This document shows, in pieces, positions 9,228 to 27,608 of a DNA stretch of 37,284 bases. A program made the translations under genes and the position numbers. Source of the stretch: a virus; the IMG/VR virus record IMGVR_UViG_3300005822_000003, positions 1 through 37,284 of that record. One strand, written 5' to 3'. The notes beneath the pieces are model-generated. The model was not told the DNA's origin. It was given only the letters and a program-made list of their open reading frames with translations, and searched no databases. The first letter of the stretch is position 1, and each line of letters begins with the position of its first letter.

Positions 9228-9893
9228 ATGCAGCTAGCAGGTGAACTTTACATACCGGACCGGGATACGTTCTTCGGCCCGATCTTTGAATCAACCGGAG
9301 ATCGGTTCGACGATAGAGCTCTAATTGATGCGATCAAATATTCGCATGTGGCCGCGATAGGCCTGGATATCCCGGTCAAGGCGATAGACGTAGGCGCTCA
9401 TGTCGGGTCGTGGACTCGCGTTATGGCGGATGAGTTCGATTGCGTTATGGCCATTGAGGCCGTGTATGAAAACTACCAGTGCTTGGTAAAGAATACGGAG
9501 CACCTTGAGAATGTGAGCACGTTTTGCTCCGCGGCTGGCCCGCATCCTGGCTTTGTCAGGTTGGCGCCTGGAGCAAACGAAGGGAATAGCGGCACATGGC
9601 ACATAGACCCGAAAGGTAAGCAGTGGACGGTAATGACAACGCTGGATTTCCTGCCCACCGAGGGTTGCCGCCTGCTTAAGATCGACGCGGAGGGATATGA
9701 GCTTGGCGTTCTGTCGGGTGCGGAGGCTCTTCTTGAGAATGAGAAGCCTGTCCTAGTGATTGAGCAAAACGAGCTTTCGGAGCGCTACGACGCCACCGAC
9801 GAAGACATAAAAAAACTATTGACATCATTCGGTTACGCGCTTCGCGCTAAGGTAAACAAGGATTTTATCTATGATCATACATCCAGATGGTAA
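9228..9893 (+). CDS. FkbM-family SAM-dependent methyltransferase
   Basis: The ORF is open from 9018, but the ATG at 9228 has a strong ribosome site (AAGGGGG), giving 221 residues of the usual FkbM size. Residues 51-63 (KAIDVGAHVGSWT) are the glycine-rich SAM-binding loop, the acidic residue after MAIEA ends the second strand, and LKIDAEGYELGVLSGA near 150 is the FkbM signature. Members O-methylate sugars or similar hydroxyls using SAM. The gene overlaps the sulfotransferase by 23 bases, which suggests a joint pathway. No signal peptide, so it acts in the cytoplasm. Confidence 0.85.
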   Translation: MQLAGELYIPDRDTFFGPIFESTGDRFDDRALIDAIKYSHVAAIGLDIPVKAIDVGAHVGSWTRVMADEFDCVMAIEAVYENYQCLVKNTEHLENVSTFCSAAGPHPGFVRLAPGANEGNSGTWHIDPKGKQWTVMTTLDFLPTEGCRLLKIDAEGYELGVLSGAEALLENEKPVLVIEQNELSERYDATDEDIKKLLTSFGYALRAKVNKDFIYDHTSRW

Positions 9894-10512
9894 GGGCGGG
9901 CACGATTGGCTTTTCGTCTCAACGATGAAGTGCGCGACCAACTCGATGTACAAGCTTTTGCCGGATATCGGTGGTCATCGGCTGTGGAATACGAGCGGCA
10001 ACTTCCACGCTCGCCCGACTGGCAGGCTGGCCGCGGTGCATTTCACTATCGTTCGCAACCCGTATGACCGCGCGGTAAGCATCTGGGCGTCCACGTGCTT
10101 GCGCGACAATGACCGATATGGTGCCGTCGCCAAGATCAAGAGCGAGGGCGGGAATCCTGGGAGCTTCGAGGACTTCTGCGCTGCCTGCCTTGCGCCGCCG
10201 CCGATGAGTTGGGCGCAAAATAGTTGGCTGTTCGAGAATCAATACGAGTGGATTAGGTCGTTCATGGTAGACGAGCTGGTTCACCTAGAAAACCTGAAGG
10301 AAGAGCTTGAGGAGATCGTTGGACCTGTCCCGAAATTGCCGATCGAGAATTCAAGTAGCCACAAGCCTTTTGCTGAGCACCTAACGCCTGACGCTGTAGA
10401 TATAATCAACGACTGGGCGTCCGATGACTTCGCGCTAGGCGGATATGAGCGATTGGACTGGCAGCCGTTCGGCGACAAGGATGACGACGGGGAGACGTTT
10501 CGTTATGGATGA
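9871..10512 (+). CDS. PAPS-dependent sulfotransferase
   Basis: This 213-residue protein shows both PAPS-binding elements of the sulfotransferase family: a 5'-phosphosulfate loop at 17-26 (STMKCATNSM) and the 3'-phosphate motif at 61-70 (VRNPYDRAVS). It resembles the short carbohydrate-type sulfotransferases (Sulfotransfer_2 group), without a membrane anchor. It would move sulfate from host PAPS to a sugar or other hydroxyl. A good ribosome site (AAGGA) lies inside the end of the methyltransferase gene, and its own end overlaps the glycosyltransferase start. Sulfotransferases are uncommon in phages. The acceptor is unknown. Confidence 0.8.
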   Translation: MIIHPDGKGGHDWLFVSTMKCATNSMYKLLPDIGGHRLWNTSGNFHARPTGRLAAVHFTIVRNPYDRAVSIWASTCLRDNDRYGAVAKIKSEGGNPGSFEDFCAACLAPPPMSWAQNSWLFENQYEWIRSFMVDELVHLENLKEELEEIVGPVPKLPIENSSSHKPFAEHLTPDAVDIINDWASDDFALGGYERLDWQPFGDKDDDGETFRYG

Positions 10513-11953
10513 GCTGCAAGTTGTATGCGTGAAGTGGGGCGACAAGTACGGGCCAGAGTACGTAAACATCCTGCAGGACATGGTTTGGCGGAACCTGACG
10601 ACGCCGCACCGGTTCATTTGCTATACCGATAACCACGATGGGATCAGCGACCGTGTGGACGTGCGCATGCTTCCCGGTGGCCTGGACGGCTGGTACAACA
10701 AGCTGTGGTTATTTTCGCCTGACGCGGGCCTGAGCGGCCGCGTGCTGTACTTTGATCTGGATACCGCTATCACAGGTAGGCTAGAAGAGATCGCCGAGTA
10801 CAGCGGGCCTCTGTGCCTGCTCGAGGACTTCTACGGCTGGACCAAGTACGGGTCCGGCGTCATGGCGTGGAATTCCAGTGTTTACCCCGTCACAGAGGCT
10901 ATCTGGAAGGAATACAAGGACAGCGGGTTCCCTGCGCACCCAAAGGGAGATCAAGGATTCATTTGCGATACGCTAGACTGGCTCCATCAGCAACCGGCAA
11001 CCTGGCAGGGAAAGTTCCCTGGCTCGTTCTGCTCATACAAGATCCACGCCAAGAAATGGCCACCGAACGGGTGCAAGGTCGTCTGCTTCCATGGTGAGCC
11101 GAACCCGCACCAGCTCCCTTCTGAGTGGATCGCGCATGTTTGGAAGCCCGGTGGGATCAGCGAGGCCAAACTCGAGTCGAAGTGCAACACGGAGAAGTCC
11201 GAGGCGATATCGAACGTTCGGGCCAACATGGCCAGGGGCGTCCAGCACTTGCAGCCTAGGGAGGGTAACGGGAAAACGATGGTGATCATTGGCGGGTCTC
11301 CAAGCATTGGTCGCTCGATGCCAATGATCCGCAAGGCAATGCGCAAAGGGGATATATGGTCTGTCAACGGCACGCACGATTTTCTGCTGGAGCGTGGCGT
11401 TACGCCGGACTATTTTGCGCTACTTGACGCCAGGAAAGACAACGTCCGCTTCGTGCAAAAGCCGAACAAGCGGACAAAATACCTTATCGCCTCGCACTGC
11501 GCTCCAGATGTGTTCGACGCGCTCAAGTCCTTCGATGTTGAAATGTGGCATGCCTATGAGCCTGATTTACATGAGGTTTTTAAGGAGCTTGCCGGCGACC
11601 AGGTGCCTATCCGCATGCTCGGAGGTGGTAACACCGTTGTCTTGAAGCTGCTTTACATGGGTCGGATGCTCGGCTACACGAAGTTCGAGCTATTTGGCGT
11701 TGATTCGAGCTATGAGAACGATGAGCATCATGCGTATCCGCAGCCCATGAACGATGGCGAGCACAGGCTTGCAGTTTGGGCCGCTGGGCGCAAATTCTCG
11801 TGCGCGCCATGGATGATTGTTCAGGCGAAAGACTTCCAAGAACAGGTTAGAGTCCTGATAGATGAAGGGTGTATAGTTACAGTTCATGGCAACGGGTTAA
11901 TTCCTTTCATTGCCAGCCAGTTAGCACAGGGGGAAGATAGCAATGCCGAGTGA
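10505..11953 (+). CDS. Glycosyltransferase fused to a DUF115/MptE-like domain
   Basis: The frame is open from 10445, but the ATG at 10505 follows GGGGAG and overlaps the sulfotransferase stop, giving 482 residues. The first ~230 residues look like a retaining glycosyltransferase of GT-A type: W-Y-NKLWLF near 63-70 and the metal-binding DxD as LYFDLDTAI (Asp84, Asp86). From about residue 257 a second domain begins with KTMVIIGGSPSIG and continues with DIWSVNG and DYFALLD, matching the DUF115 (MptE-like / Maf motility-accessory) group, members of which act in glycan transfer to flagellin. The fusion points to glycan assembly on a protein. Acceptor unknown. Confidence 0.75.
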   Translation: MDELQVVCVKWGDKYGPEYVNILQDMVWRNLTTPHRFICYTDNHDGISDRVDVRMLPGGLDGWYNKLWLFSPDAGLSGRVLYFDLDTAITGRLEEIAEYSGPLCLLEDFYGWTKYGSGVMAWNSSVYPVTEAIWKEYKDSGFPAHPKGDQGFICDTLDWLHQQPATWQGKFPGSFCSYKIHAKKWPPNGCKVVCFHGEPNPHQLPSEWIAHVWKPGGISEAKLESKCNTEKSEAISNVRANMARGVQHLQPREGNGKTMVIIGGSPSIGRSMPMIRKAMRKGDIWSVNGTHDFLLERGVTPDYFALLDARKDNVRFVQKPNKRTKYLIASHCAPDVFDALKSFDVEMWHAYEPDLHEVFKELAGDQVPIRMLGGGNTVVLKLLYMGRMLGYTKFELFGVDSSYENDEHHAYPQPMNDGEHRLAVWAAGRKFSCAPWMIVQAKDFQEQVRVLIDEGCIVTVHGNGLIPFIASQLAQGEDSNAE

Positions 11954-16705: not shown

Positions 16706-17152
16706 TTACCTCCCGCTGTGTCCGAATCCGCCAGTGCCTCTTTCTGTTTTGGCTCCGAATTCCGTTACCACGTCCCATCCCGCCCTCTCGACTGGGATAA
16801 ATACCATCTGAGCAATGCGCTCACCTGGCTGGATCGTGTAGAAGATGTTGCCGCGATTGTAGACCGATATAAACACCTCGCCCTGATAGTCTCCGTCTAT
16901 GAGGCCAGTCCCGTTACCAAGGATGATCCCGTGCTTGTGGCCTAGTCCGGACCTTGGAATCAGGATCGCCGCGTGCGAGTTGGTCATGATGCTTATAGCA
17001 ATGCCGGACGGGATAAGCTCGGCGTCTGCGCCTGGCCAAATCTCGATAGGCTCATCAATGCATGCCATAAGGTCTAGCCCTGCAGCCATATCGGTTGCTG
17101 GCTCGGGAATCATCGCTCCCGGTCGGGTAACCTTGATTTCGACGTTTATCAT
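16706..17152 (-). CDS. dut: dUTP diphosphatase (trimeric Dut)
   Basis: This 148-residue protein shows all five motifs of trimeric dUTPase: MAAGLDLMA (I), [11 protein letters not shown] (II), [15 protein letters not shown] (III), [12 protein letters not shown] (IV) and the C-terminal arm [11 protein letters not shown] (V). It hydrolyses dUTP to dUMP and pyrophosphate, keeping uracil out of phage DNA and feeding dTMP synthesis. It is the last gene of the minus-strand early operon; its ATG overlaps the stop of the gene before it (ATGA-type). Confidence 0.95.
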
Positions 17153-17559
17153 TTCGCTCCCCCAAATGTGTGCCGGTAACCTATCCCGATCATGTTCAGC
17201 CCAGTATCAGCCGCTTCTGGGTTGCTGTAGTGTGTCGCCTGAAGGTACCAGCCAGGGTACTTCTCAACCTCGTAGCCTACGGACAGTTCTAAGACTGCCG
17301 GGAAGTCCAGGTTGCCGTGTGCCTCCATCTCGTCAAAATCGCTGTCATGGAGGTGTGCGGCGGCCTGGACGTATGGCGCCGCCATAACGGTGTCTCCCCA
17401 GAGCATGAGGAAGGCTAGCGACGCCACGACGAACACGAACCATCTGTAGGCGTGCATTATCATGAACAGCTTGCGGTGCTCCCCTTGGCAGTTGTTCGGA
17501 GCGTGAAGCCCAGGTTTGCCGGTGTATTGCTCGTAATGCGAATATGGCTTGTTGGTCAT
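17149..17559 (-). CDS. Membrane-anchored or exported small beta-rich protein
   Basis: This 136-residue protein starts at 17559 after AAAGGAT. Residues about 40-60 are a hydrophobic segment ([14 protein letters not shown]) ending in VMAAP, so it is either a late signal peptide with an A-A cleavage site or a type II anchor after a 38-residue cytoplasmic head. The rest resembles strands of a small outer-membrane barrel ([30 protein letters not shown]). It lies between the amidase and dUTPase genes. Possible roles are envelope disruption during lysis or superinfection exclusion. No family recognised. Confidence 0.6.
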
Positions 17560-17570
17560 CTCGTTATCCT

Positions 17571-18368
17571 TTAGATCTGTTGATCCGCCATCCGGGCCCT
17601 TATTTTCTGGATTGTTTGGAGGCAGGCAAGAAGCGCAGTCTGCGAGGCGTTGATCTTTTGTTGCAGATAAATCGCTCGATTCACCTCTCGATCTAGCTCG
17701 GAAAGTTCTTGGTCTGTGGGTTTCTCGTTATCCACTGGCCCGCTCCCAGCCTTCCTGAGACGTTCAACGTATCTAGGATTATTTGCTATAAGGTCTATGT
17801 TGAAACGCTTCCCGACAAGCATTTCCGCCGCTTCCGAAAGCACCGCCTCCGCATAATCGGCCTCAAGCCCTCCGCCTAGCACAAGCGCGCCGCGATCGTG
17901 CGGGTTGCTCAGCTTCCCCTTGTGGCCGACGCTGAAGGCTACAAGCCCGCCATCTGGGAACATCTTTTGTATGCCTTCCCCAATGACGGTGGCAAGAATT
18001 TGTCGCCCGTGCTTCGATCTGAGCGTGTCGGAGCCGTCATATGACGAGCAGAACAGAGGCTCCAAAAGAACGGCGGGCATTCTCGTGTATTTAATGCTGC
18101 TATTGCCGCGCCCATGAATCCCACCAATGGATATGCCTGTCTTGCCGTAACGCCCGATTTTTAGGCGCGACGAGTATTCCCCAGCCATCCATGTTGCAAG
18201 ATCAATGCTTGTTGAGCTGGCGTTATCGCCAACCACCACTAGCGAGTAATTCGTGTTTGGGTCTACTGCGCTGTTGAAGTGCTGTTCGACATACACAATG
18301 GCATTATCGTTGTTCGCCATTTGCTGCCTGTCTGAGTAGTTGCCAGAGTAGAACTTTACTGAGTACAT
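17571..18368 (-). CDS. N-acetylmuramoyl-L-alanine amidase (probable endolysin)
   Basis: This 265-residue protein has AAGGAG seven bases before its ATG. It carries the zinc and catalytic motifs of Amidase_3 enzymes but in swapped order: His30 in EQHFNS (usual third motif), Glu103 in MPAVLLEPLF (usual last motif), then His149 in VGHKGK-x-DRGAL (usual first motif) and Glu169/174 in LEADYAEAVL (usual second). This reads as a circular permutation. Amidases of this kind cut the bond between muramic acid and the stem peptide. Residues about 205-265 form a charged helical tail. No signal peptide, so it needs a holin to cross the membrane. Confidence 0.7.
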   Translation of the reverse strand: MYSVKFYSGNYSDRQQMANNDNAIVYVEQHFNSAVDPNTNYSLVVVGDNASSTSIDLATWMAGEYSSRLKIGRYGKTGISIGGIHGRGNSSIKYTRMPAVLLEPLFCSSYDGSDTLRSKHGRQILATVIGEGIQKMFPDGGLVAFSVGHKGKLSNPHDRGALVLGGGLEADYAEAVLSEAAEMLVGKRFNIDLIANNPRYVERLRKAGSGPVDNEKPTDQELSELDREVNRAIYLQQKINASQTALLACLQTIQKIRARMADQQI

Positions 18369-18381
18369 TCCATGCTCCTTA

Positions 18382-18468
18382 TTACTGGAATCCGTTCGCC
18401 GCTATCATAAAGATGACGGCGAGCAACAAACTGAAGCTGATCACCACAAAGGCATTTTCTTCGCTCAT
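18382..18468 (-). CDS. 28-residue single-TM peptide before the amidase
   Basis: A short minus-strand ORF starts at 18468 with ATGA overlap to the stop of the 83-residue gene and ends 13 bases before the amidase ATG. After a four-residue acidic start it is one hydrophobic helix (FVVISFSLLLAVIFMIAA) ending in NGFQ. The location directly before the amidase fits a pinholin-like or regulatory lysis peptide, but size alone proves nothing. The junction preceding it duplicates the junction after csrA. Confidence 0.55.
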   Translation of the reverse strand: MSEENAFVVISFSLLLAVIFMIAANGFQ

Positions 18469-18716
18469 CTATTCCCCGCCTTTCGTTTAGCGGCAGCGAT
18501 CCGCTCGTCGTAATCAAGCGATCCGCTCAGTCTAAGGTTGCGTCTCCAAGGTGATTTGCTTGCTCCATTGGTTCCGCACTGGCTCTTGGTCAGCTTCGGC
18601 GTATTCTTGGCTTCTTCAAACGACATGCCGCGCCGAAGCCTGTGGCGGAACGTGTTGACCGTCATGCCGATCTTGTCCGCCGCCGCCTTTACTTCGTCAT
18701 ATGTTGGCTCGCTCAT
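18465..18716 (-). CDS. Small HTH-like DNA-binding protein
   Basis: This 83-residue basic protein has a helix-turn-helix-like N-terminus: DEVKAAADKIGMTVNTFRHRLRRGMSFEEAKN, in which AADKIGMTVNTFRHRL would be the two helices. It resembles short phage proteins with a homeodomain-like or AlpA-like fold. The C-terminus is Arg/Lys-rich. Its ATG overlaps the stop of csrA and its stop overlaps the ATG of the membrane peptide, so all three are coupled. It probably binds DNA; target unknown. Confidence 0.6.
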   Translation of the reverse strand: MSEPTYDEVKAAADKIGMTVNTFRHRLRRGMSFEEAKNTPKLTKSQCGTNGASKSPWRRNLRLSGSLDYDERIAAAKRKAGNR

Positions 18717-18892
18717 CTATTCCCCCCGTTGCGAACAAGCTCGTCTCGCAAGATCTTGTAGTTGTCTGGGGCTTCAATACCGACCTTGATAAACCCGCGG
18801 CCGTCTTCCCACACCTTTACCCAGATCTCGGCTCCGCTTTGCTCTTCAACAATCTGGATGGATTCTCCGGTCTTTCTTCCTAGTACCAGCAT
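18713..18892 (-). CDS. csrA: CsrA/RsmA-family RNA-binding regulator
   Basis: A 59-residue ORF starts at 18892 after AGGAG. It begins MLVLGRKTGESIQI, matching the CsrA start with Leu4, Arg6, Gly9 and Glu10 conserved, and ends with IKVGIEAPDNYKILRDELV, matching the CsrA segment with the key C-terminal Arg (position 44 region; HREEI in E. coli). The middle is changed from the cellular protein. CsrA dimers bind GGA in mRNA leaders, usually blocking ribosome binding. It lies between the exonuclease and HTH genes, coupled to the latter. A phage copy could act on host or phage mRNAs; two CsrA-like sites lie at 21194-21244. Confidence 0.85.
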   Translation of the reverse strand: MLVLGRKTGESIQIVEEQSGAEIWVKVWEDGRGFIKVGIEAPDNYKILRDELVRNGGNR

Positions 18893-18894
18893 GT

Positions 18895-20373
18895 CTATCT
18901 CCTGTTTTCATCAAAAATACGAGAGGCCTCCTCAAATCCTACCCAATCATCAACGCCAGCCGCTTGTAGCGCGTTGGCCCACTCCCTAGCCTCAACAAGC
19001 TCGGTATATTCGGCCTTTGTTATTGTGATCATTTCGACGTTGAGCGTTAGCTCATCCGCAAGCTCCGCAATTGTTTCTCGTGGAGGATCGTGCGGCAGCT
19101 CCTCCTTGATCTCAGGTTCGGCACTCCTTTGCCTCTCTTGCTCGACGGCCAATCTTGCCGCTTCCTCCTTGGCGCGCTCAATGCGCTCATTCTCGACCCT
19201 CTTAGCTTCCCTGGCTTCGATAGCGGCCGCGTCAGCCAGGCGGTCATAGTCGAGGATGGCTTGAGTTAGCGCGTGCTCGGCGGCGTCTGTGAGCCCCGTG
19301 ACGGTCCTGCGTCCCTTCATCGCCTCTCTTGGATTGAACGCGTAATCGATGACTGGCCGAACGTCCGTGTAGCCTGCCAGCTTTTCCCTCGCGTGCGCCT
19401 GGAACTTCTCTGAAACGTCAATAACGATATTAAGCCGGATTGACTCCTTCTTTTCTTTTACGAGCCTCGACAAAGTAAGGCGGCTTTCCCGTAACTTCTT
19501 GCCTATCGCGTCAACCTTGGAAAAGAACCTATCAAGATCGGCGGTTGACTGGAGCGAGGACGCTTTTGCATCCTGAAGGGCCTTCTCTGCTTTCGCGCAA
19601 ATCTTTACATTCGCTTCCGCGTTGGCAAAGTCTTGATCATCGACCAGCACGGCATTGATTCCGTCCAGAAATTTATGCGCCGCCTCCTCGAAGGAATTGA
19701 TATTACTGGATACCAGTGCTCCCGATACGTTGGCAAACAGAACAGGCAGGCCTGGGGGGGCAATGTCAGGTTCTGGCTTTTCCTTTATTTCGCGGCCCTT
19801 ATAGCTTGCCAAGTCTTCGGCGAATAGCTTCCACCCAGCGATTACTCTTTCTCGGCGCTCTGGGGTAGATCTGTACTCGAGGAGCGCAAACTCATTATCG
19901 GATTTTCCGCTTGACGTAGTAAAAAAGATTACATTTGAGCCGCAAACAAGGAGCTGTTGCTCAACCTGCGGCCAATGCGAATCTGGAAGGTCTCCGTATA
20001 GATCAAGCCAGACCGCTAGAGCTTTATTCCATTGCTTATTTTCCCAGCCTATGCAGCCAGACATCGTCAATCCATCCATGCTCGCAAGAAGCGGGAGCCC
20101 TTCAATCTCGTTTGCCGCGGTGACAGGGTATAGATTTTCGCCTACAAGCCTCTCAATTACAGGCCTAGTTAGCGCCTCTGCTTCATGTCCTTCTTCGAGG
20201 TGCTTTGAGTATCCTTCCTCCTTTCGCTCCCGGAATGCTTTCTCTCGTAAAAGCTCATCTCTGGTTGTGTGCTTGGATAATCCAAGCATGGCCGCTGCTT
20301 CGCTTGCGGAGAAGTAATCTAGCTTGAGTTCAAGCCACTCTTCCGTACCTTGAATTACGTTTAATATTTCCAT
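18895..20373 (-). CDS. YqaJ-type viral recombinase exonuclease
   Basis: This 492-residue protein has a YqaJ nuclease domain in its first ~200 residues: GTEEWLELKLDYFSASEAA, LGLSKHTTRDELLREKA, HEAEALTRPVIE, then the PD-(D/E)xK core ASMDGLTM and GWENKQW, and WPQVEQQLLVCG. It degrades one strand of double-stranded DNA ends to make single strands for annealing. The remaining ~290 residues are helical and charged with coiled-coil character (REAKRVENERIERAKEEAAR), longer than lambda Exo. It follows the ERF annealing gene after 17 bases, giving a two-part recombination system. Confidence 0.85.
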   Translation of the reverse strand: MEILNVIQGTEEWLELKLDYFSASEAAAMLGLSKHTTRDELLREKAFRERKEEGYSKHLEEGHEAEALTRPVIERLVGENLYPVTAANEIEGLPLLASMDGLTMSGCIGWENKQWNKALAVWLDLYGDLPDSHWPQVEQQLLVCGSNVIFFTTSSGKSDNEFALLEYRSTPERRERVIAGWKLFAEDLASYKGREIKEKPEPDIAPPGLPVLFANVSGALVSSNINSFEEAAHKFLDGINAVLVDDQDFANAEANVKICAKAEKALQDAKASSLQSTADLDRFFSKVDAIGKKLRESRLTLSRLVKEKKESIRLNIVIDVSEKFQAHAREKLAGYTDVRPVIDYAFNPREAMKGRRTVTGLTDAAEHALTQAILDYDRLADAAAIEAREAKRVENERIERAKEEAARLAVEQERQRSAEPEIKEELPHDPPRETIAELADELTLNVEMITITKAEYTELVEAREWANALQAAGVDDWVGFEEASRIFDENRR

Positions 20374-20390: not shown

Positions 20391-21008
20391 CTATTGAGGT
20401 GGGGCTAGCCCTTCGAGAGACCTTATAAGGCTTACTTGCGTAGGAGTGAGTGTGTATTGAGTTGAGATTGCGTTAATTATTTGCATGGCGCTGCGCTTTC
20501 CGGAAGAAATAAGCCCCTCCCATTTCTTCTGGTTCGCGGCCATCTCGGTTTTAGGATATGGCGGAAGCTGGTCAGCATCTTGCTTTGACTGTTGCTTCTC
20601 GCCGCCAGGGGCCGGAGATATAGAGTTGCCGTCGTCATCTACTTGAGATATCCCAACAAACCCTGCAAGGCCGGATTTGCGCATGTAAGTGATTGCGGCC
20701 GCAACCTTCTGCGGGTTGTTTGAGTCAGCAAAAAGTTGCTGTGCTTCCTGCGAAACCCATTGCCCGCTCTCGTGGGCGATTAGCGTTGTTAGCGACACGC
20801 CTCCATCAAGAGCGCCAGGCATTTGCATCACCGCAAGCCCATGATCAGCAAGGGGTTTCCTGCATGCTTCCCAAATCTCTGAGAGATCGGCGTACTTTGA
20901 TCTGAAGTGCGGGTTATTAGAGGTTTTTTTGGCTCCGGCTATCTCGCCTTGAGCCGCAGCTAAAGATGCAGCTAGATTGCCTATTTCATCTGACTTCTTG
21001 AAGTCCAT
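20391..21008 (-). CDS. erf: ERF-family single-strand annealing protein
   Basis: This 205-residue protein has the ERF signature: PHFRSKYADLSEIWEACRKPL, then LADHGLAVMQM, GVSLTTLIAHESGQWV and AAAITYMRKSGLAGFVGI. ERF proteins form rings and anneal complementary single strands during phage recombination. The C-terminal part (from about 150) is a small helical domain that may contact SSB. The ATG follows AGGAG, which overlaps the stop of the 56-residue gene before it. The exonuclease gene is next, as in many phage recombination modules. Confidence 0.9.
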   Translation of the reverse strand: MDFKKSDEIGNLAASLAAAQGEIAGAKKTSNNPHFRSKYADLSEIWEACRKPLADHGLAVMQMPGALDGGVSLTTLIAHESGQWVSQEAQQLFADSNNPQKVAAAITYMRKSGLAGFVGISQVDDDGNSISPAPGGEKQQSKQDADQLPPYPKTEMAANQKKWEGLISSGKRSAMQIINAISTQYTLTPTQVSLIRSLEGLAPPQ

Positions 21009-22427: not shown

Positions 22428-22652
22428 ATGGTTAGCGGGATAGTAAAGGCTGTTAATTTCTTTGGGAATCAGAATCGTATGGCCAAAGCGCTCGGTGTGT
22501 CTCGGCAGTCCGTAACTTTCTGGGTGAATGGCAAGGCAAAAATCTCCCCGGTTAACGTCCTGAAAATCAACAAAATTACAAGAGGGGCCATCTCTCCAAG
22601 TGAGTTGAGGCCGGATATTTATCCCCCATCGATTTACTTCAAGGCGAAGTAA
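22428..22652 (+). CDS. Cro/YdaS-type HTH regulator
   Basis: This 74-residue protein has the YdaS/Cro layout: IVKAVNFFGNQNRMAKALGVSRQSVTFWVNG split as helix 2 NRMAKALG and recognition helix SRQSVTFWVNG, then KISPVNVLKINKITRGAISPSELRPDIYP, the usual ending of this family. It binds operator DNA as a dimer and in lambdoid phages represses the early promoters. AAAAGGAAAC before the ATG is the ribosome site. It is the first rightward gene and is followed by a terminator, as cro is in lambda. No CI partner is encoded opposite. Confidence 0.85.
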   Translation: MVSGIVKAVNFFGNQNRMAKALGVSRQSVTFWVNGKAKISPVNVLKINKITRGAISPSELRPDIYPPSIYFKAK

Positions 22653-26300: not shown

Positions 26301-27608
26301 ATGGCTGCAAATTTGATACATGACTGGGATTTTGGGGTCGCTGTGGCCCGAGAGAGTCACTCTAATATGACGCCGGGGCCCCTTGGAGAGGCACCGTGGA
26401 GTATCCCGCCGTCGTTTGTACTGAGCCGGACACGAGACAAAGGGGCGCATGGGGATTCATTGGTCGAGGTTCGCGCTGGCGCAGCACACTTCGCGCGAGC
26501 TGGGCTGACCCATCCAATTAACATCCGGTCTGAAGACATCGTCGATGTCGATGTTGAAGTTCGCGCTCCGGGTGCTGGGTACGACGGGGACTTTACTATA
26601 TCTATATCCGAAGGAGCGTACGCCCGCTGGCGCATAGGCGTTGTGTGGGTCGACGGCAAGCCGCAAGAGCGTAGTACCGCCAGGCGCGGGGACTTAATCG
26701 ACACGAGCATTGACAAGGCGGCATTCCAAGGGGGTTGGCGCATCCGGATGCGCATTGACGCTACGCGCGAAACGGCGCACGGCGAGCTGACGAACTTCCT
26801 TGGTCTGCAACTGCGAATCCTACCGGGCGGCGCTTTCCATAGTGCGCCCGACGCCGAGATAGCGTTTGGCCGCGTCGTAGTCGAGAAGTCGCCGTTGGCG
26901 CAGGTATATAAGCATTTTTTCACGCGTTACATTTACGACGGTTCTCATGGCCCTGGCACACTAAATCATCTGGACGGGCGGTGGCAGAGATACCGGGACT
27001 TCGAAGCCATTGAGCTTGGCGACAACTCCTTGAAGCTTATAGCTACCGCGCGGTCGGATACACTGGCTGATGGAACGATCCGTTCCGGCATGCTGCGCTC
27101 CAAGACAGCCGATCAATACGGGTACTACGAGATGCGGGCCAGGCTGCCGAACGGCAAGGGCGCCTTCCCTGCCTTCTGGATTAACCCTCAAGATCTAAAA
27201 TGGCCACCTGAGATAGACTGGATGGAGATGGTAGACGGACCGAATGACGATCCGCACAGGTTATTCTGCTCACTAATTGGCAAGGGCCGAGGGCAACCTG
27301 AGACGTCCTTGGTGAATTCGTTCAACGCCTACGAGACTGGGCTGGACCTGAGTGCCGGGTTTCATACCTACGGCGGATTGTGGACCGCGGAAAAAGCGCA
27401 TCACATCTTTGATGGATTAGAAGTCCGGCGCACTCCGATAGACTGGATACACAACGACGACACGCACGCTGGTCCTGCGCACGTGCTGGCAAACCTGGCA
27501 GTTGGCGGGATCGAATGGACGGGCGTTCCGGCATCGTTGACGCACTTCCCGATGGTAATGGAGATAGACTACATCCGTGTTTGGGATTCGGACCCTAGGT
27601 CTTTGTAA
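26301..27608 (+). CDS. GH16-type glycoside hydrolase (polysaccharide depolymerase candidate)
   Basis: A 435-residue protein. The C-terminal half (about 200-430) is a GH16 beta-sandwich: IRSGMLRSKTADQYGYYEM, FPAFWINPQ and the catalytic motif Glu304-Ile-Asp306-Trp-Met-Glu309 (E-x-D-x-x-E), with nucleophile and acid/base as the two Glu, then FHTYGGLWTAE and EIDYIRVWD near the end. The N-terminal ~195 residues are a second beta-rich domain, probably carbohydrate-binding. No signal peptide. GH16 enzymes cut beta-1,3/1,4-glucans, agar, carrageenan or similar. It lies among early genes, not tail genes; possibly a virion enzyme, a freed enzyme after lysis, or a moron. AGGAG lies 12 bases upstream. 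Confidence 0.8.
   Translation: MAANLIHDWDFGVAVARESHSNMTPGPLGEAPWSIPPSFVLSRTRDKGAHGDSLVEVRAGAAHFARAGLTHPINIRSEDIVDVDVEVRAPGAGYDGDFTISISEGAYARWRIGVVWVDGKPQERSTARRGDLIDTSIDKAAFQGGWRIRMRIDATRETAHGELTNFLGLQLRILPGGAFHSAPDAEIAFGRVVVEKSPLAQVYKHFFTRYIYDGSHGPGTLNHLDGRWQRYRDFEAIELGDNSLKLIATARSDTLADGTIRSGMLRSKTADQYGYYEMRARLPNGKGAFPAFWINPQDLKWPPEIDWMEMVDGPNDDPHRLFCSLIGKGRGQPETSLVNSFNAYETGLDLSAGFHTYGGLWTAEKAHHIFDGLEVRRTPIDWIHNDDTHAGPAHVLANLAVGGIEWTGVPASLTHFPMVMEIDYIRVWDSDPRSL

Follow-up and report, generated by a model that had tools for sequence, protein, structure and literature searches.

The window, the whole stretch of DNA analysed here, comprises positions 1 to 37,284 (37,284 nucleotides) of the IMG/VR virus record IMGVR_UViG_3300005822_000003, and near its middle it carries a csrA-like gene. 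CsrA is a bacterial RNA-binding protein that turns mRNAs on or off, and it serves as a global translational regulator. The frame lies on the minus strand from 18892 to 18713, with an ATG at 18892, a TGA at 18715-18713 and a product of 59 amino acids, just as an earlier sequence-only reading of this DNA had placed it. That reading also held the gene to be too short for usual ORF cut-offs, a point that carries less weight, since the annotation of phage records regularly includes csrA genes of such length. The features of the locus are these:

20391-21008, minus strand: ERF single-strand annealing protein, an operon gene upstream of csrA (PF04404, 71 bits; phrog_2324)
18895-20373, minus strand: RecE/YqaJ-like exonuclease, which ends 2 nt ahead of the csrA start (PF09588; phrog_7655)
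18899-18903, minus strand: AGGAG, putative ribosome-binding site of csrA, which also holds a GGA that CsrA could bind in autoregulation (from sequence)
18713-18892, minus strand: csrA, 59-amino-acid CsrA-family protein (PF02599, 51 bits, and fold match to CsrA chains)
18833-18850, minus strand: codons 15-20 of csrA (VEEQSG), which include the five residues that E. coli CsrA lacks (alignments)
18465-18716, minus strand: 83-amino-acid ORF overlapping csrA by ATGA, weakly HTH-like (ORF call, Pfam, PHROGs)
17571-18368, minus strand: Amidase_3 endolysin, downstream of csrA (PF01520, 54.5 bits)
22428-22652, plus strand: Cro/YdaS-like regulator, first gene of the divergent rightward operon (PF15943, PF14549)

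Reading leftward along the minus strand, one meets in turn the ERF annealing protein, the RecE/YqaJ exonuclease, csrA, the 83-amino-acid ORF, the Amidase_3 endolysin, a 136-amino-acid ORF and dUTPase. The proposed site between recombination and lysis genes is thereby borne out, with ERF and YqaJ/RecE on one side and Amidase_3 on the other. Because the exonuclease stop lies only 2 nt from csrA and the ATGA at 18713-18716 joins csrA to the downstream ORF, translational coupling of csrA with its neighbours is plausible. The ATGA overlap makes good one half of the proposal that csrA is linked to an HTH gene, but the HTH label is weak: the 83-amino-acid ORF matches no Pfam family over the cut-off, its best hit being HTH_30 at E=0.016. 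It does match PHROGs without assigned function and the end of an HNH family; a similarity to the VvAW1 HNH protein was considered and found unconvincing. Beyond the divergent head, the Cro/YdaS-like regulator is followed by an O-like replication protein, and the layout resembles the two early operons of a temperate phage; no integrase or CI repressor was found among the proteins searched. Terminase, capsid, replication, recombination and lysis families are all present on the contig, and the same gene order recurs in a sister viral contig. We conclude that csrA lies within a phage genome and not in host DNA.

Several other frames of the window merit mention. The C-terminal end of the exonuclease (18907-19047, minus strand; residues 443-489) matches a T7 gp5.9-like RecBCD-inhibitor domain (PF25708, 44 bits against a cut-off of 24.5), so that exonuclease and inhibitor appear to be fused in the ORF at 18895-20373, which in turn hints at a host with RecBCD. 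The 136-amino-acid ORF between amidase and dUTPase (17149-17559, minus strand) has a weak, below-cut-off similarity to the lipid A deacylase PagL (E=0.006), and at its place the sister contig has a different ORF of 77 amino acids. Among the early-region genes is a 435-amino-acid ORF (26301-27608, plus strand) with a glycosyl hydrolase family 16 domain (54 bits), an unusual companion for RusA and replication genes. An ORF within the structural gene block (10445-11953, plus strand) matches the phage glycosyltransferase family phrog_1962.

Is the short protein really a CsrA? Its membership of the family is near certain. It matches Pfam CsrA (PF02599) at 1.4e-13 and 51 bits, where the gathering cut-off is 27, and at 1.6e-14 in a search of the whole record. 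When the frames of the window were searched with a CsrA profile, csrA scored 88.4 bits and the runner-up frame 5.3 bits; that profile was made in part from the window protein itself, so that the independent evidence is the Pfam score. The protein does miss the cut-off of the NCBIfam csrA equivalog TIGR00202, with 43 bits against 70.1, and for this reason we treat it as a divergent member of the CsrA family, and neither as an orthologue of cellular csrA nor as a recognizable housekeeping protein.

The residues of the protein tell a similar story. In an alignment of 59 diverse homologues, mostly viral and numbered here as in the window protein, M1, L2, L4, R6 and R49 never vary (59 of 59), and all five are present in the window protein. 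R49, the key arginine that had been picked out from the sequence, is the equivalent of E. coli CsrA R44, described as essential for RNA binding (PMC7366521). The claim that the centre of the protein diverges also stands. The alignments place five residues absent from E. coli CsrA within VEEQSG (15-20), the turn preceding the strand that begins at residue 21, and 56 of the 59 homologues lack this insertion. An AlphaFold model built from the 59 sequences reached a mean pLDDT of 87.7, as against a poor 67.8 for one built from four sequences. In Foldseek the best PDB matches of the model are all CsrA/RsmA chains, at probability 1.00 and TM about 0.7, and the E-values of 0.02 or more reflect the shortness of the chain. 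VIA gave Z of 5.2-6.9 over 53-54 residues for CsrA/RsmA entries, and 3.6 for the first unrelated entry. The single chain is thus predicted to have the CsrA fold, and with the Pfam score and the invariant residues this sustains the identity first assigned to the gene.

One might suppose that so divergent a protein, with its insertion and its score below the equivalog cut-off, is an inactive or dominant-negative CsrA that merely pairs with the host protein or acts as its decoy. We regard this as very improbable, because L4, R6 and R49 are all kept, and because the less usual residues G5 and L48 are found in 4 and 16 of the 59 homologues, respectively.

What are the relatives of this phage and of its csrA? 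The IMG/VR contig 3300007871_000126 represents a sister phage: its CsrA shares 98% identity, and the genes around it stand in the same order; the two csrA genes differ by two changes only, too few to measure selection. The viral CsrAs that come next, at 53% and 48% identity, belong to phages in whose fetched flanks no other protein is common to the window. With the window protein as query, tblastn against annotated phages returned nothing at E 0.01, and the E. coli CsrA query found 85 annotated phage records, a few of which are plainly contigs of bacteria (one is a 691-kb Salmonella record). The csrA published for Skulduggery did not turn up in the fetched portion of that genome. Each IMG/VR scan yielded at least about 500 confirmed csrA-encoding stretches, some of which may be prophage edges or host DNA; on these numbers viral csrA is common.

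Of 32 viral records whose major capsid protein is related, two have csrA, the sister and a 38,955-base podovirus record, though its absence elsewhere means little, as most of the other records are fragments. The podovirus capsid is 65% identical and its csrA is of a more canonical type. In a tree that is weak for want of columns, the csrA genes of window and podovirus fall apart; the window branch is extremely long, at 10 changes per column, and its grouping with loci L003 and L024 is only suggestive. The presence of a different csrA in a structurally related podovirus, apart from the window csrA in the tree, suggests that the two phages acquired the gene separately. The podovirus csrA (L111, G005:C1, about 9774-9950, plus strand) has no ATG, GTG or TTG at the expected start, where an ATC stands behind AAGGAG; the gene may use ATC as a rare start, may be damaged, or may owe the codon to a sequencing error. 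As for the host, the best terminase match is Pseudanabaena phage Pam5 (55.6%), and the capsid matches Bradyrhizobium, Stenotrophomonas and Myxococcus phages. Since these point to different hosts, we assign none. No tRNA genes were found when they were sought as a clue to the host, and scanning genomes with the CsrA alignment produced just two matches, both distant.

On which mRNAs might the protein act? One answer is the phage's own, csrA included: by binding GGA in their leaders, CsrA would set the timing of early relative to late or lysis genes and hold down its own synthesis. There are GGAs at -10 and +12 of the csrA start, compatible with autoregulation, and the ribosome-binding sites of amidase and dUTPase can form GGA hairpins in short folds. 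The predicted hairpins of csrA, amidase and dUTPase vary with the length folded, however, and GGA hairpins are not enriched at the phage gene starts (11 of 78 GGAs, against 158 of 1152 elsewhere; p=0.87). Regulation of phage mRNAs is possible, though we hold it to be the less likely answer, and the lack of enrichment leans mildly towards host mRNAs. A CsrB/RsmZ-like decoy RNA was also sought, with no Rfam match.

The position of csrA beside recombination genes is not peculiar to the window. In the related 38,955-base podovirus csrA follows a RecT-family gene; at L003 it precedes Gp157 and Rad52-like genes; at L175 it follows, and at L129 precedes, RecT and YqaJ genes; and at L157, L253 and in VvAW1 it follows a DEDD-type exonuclease. 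In a scan of 78 dereplicated viral csrA loci, made with few seed families and with many flanks short, 14 had a recombination gene of the seed families within 4 kb of csrA. It lay within 2 kb in 12 of the 14 (binomial p=0.006 if distance were uniform) and always on the same strand, an observation weakened by the clustering of phage early genes on one strand anyway. Other phages have csrA elsewhere, beside a capsid gene in BcepIL02 and beside lysis genes in PTXU04. New here is the repeated occurrence of csrA, in different phages, next to unrelated recombination genes; we take it as a lead and not as proof. Such surroundings suggest that csrA is expressed early, and they give a concrete place to start. 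Might csrA even be a functional part of phage recombination modules, with a direct role in recombination, or a translational block on host DNA-end processing or defence, rather than in general rewiring of the host? We think this unlikely.

The reading we favour, with a probability of roughly 0.55, is that the gene encodes a working but divergent CsrA, an early RNA-binding dimer that acts mainly on host mRNAs. Judging by its operon position, csrA would be made early, together with the recombination operon. The protein would form the usual strand-swapped dimer, with two sites each composed of strand 1 of one subunit and strand 5, with R49, of the other, and by binding GGA in the leaders of mRNAs these sites would stop translation or change it. 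Infection would probably gain mainly through mRNAs of the host Csr/Rsm regulon, in metabolism, motility, biofilm or defence. This reading draws on the Pfam match, the retained RNA-contact residues, the CsrA/RsmA fold matches and the pLDDT of 87.7; on the tight packing of the operon, the gene order kept in the sister and the lack of GGA-hairpin enrichment at phage starts; and on the precedents of bci (PMC7546807) and RsmQ (PMC9928087). Against it we count the score below the csrA equivalog cut-off. A rival role would be that of a translational anti-CRISPR, repressing translation of host CRISPR-Cas or other defence systems: RsmA acts as a repressor of type I-F and III-A CRISPR-Cas in Serratia, and an anti-CRISPR role has been proposed for phage RsmA (PMC8450108). 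The adjoining exonuclease, with its T7 gp5.9-like RecBCD-inhibitor end, is another anti-defence feature. We consider this role unlikely.

How does the window gene compare with known systems? It is a divergent, core-only CsrA in a phage, and as the group of viral CsrAs is already known, it is no new system. The earlier remark that phage CsrAs are little explored is partly out of date. Table 3 of Sobrero and Valverde lists 30 of 2517 phages with csrA (PMC7366521). Numerous RsmA proteins of phages emerged from a search of GenBank and IMG/VR, and their presence was reported to correlate with host csrA (PMC8450108). When the phage csrA bci was deleted, infection was weaker, and the host showed changes in motility, in biofilm and in the expression of quorum-sensing genes (PMC7546807). 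CsrA has been taken up repeatedly by mobile elements, and a divergent core-only csrA, in a phage with a relative that has a different one, adds a case in which to ask whether phage CsrAs help the phage by way of host mRNAs, phage mRNAs or host immunity. With cellular CsrA (E. coli, PDB 1y00; RsmE, 2jpp) the window protein has in common the fold and the invariant residues, but its alignment with E. coli CsrA shows 28% identity, it carries the insertion, and it falls below the TIGR00202 cut-off. Other phage CsrA/RsmA homologues (PMC7366521, PMC8450108, phrog_9500, phrog_5527) are likewise phage-borne and have the invariant residues, and the VvAW1 csrA also adjoins an exonuclease, whereas the window protein has its five-residue insertion and is too divergent from them for tblastn at E 0.01. 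Bci of Pseudomonas phage AUS531phi is again a phage CsrA domain, encoded upstream of an exonuclease and a RecT gene; at 123 amino acids it extends beyond that domain at the C-terminus, and the domain resembles cellular CsrA far more closely, while the window protein is core only. RsmQ of plasmid pQBR103 is, like the window csrA, a CsrA homologue on a mobile element, and it exerts global control of the host (PMC9928087); RsmQ is plasmid-borne, with RNA binding and host effects demonstrated, where for the window protein both are inferred.
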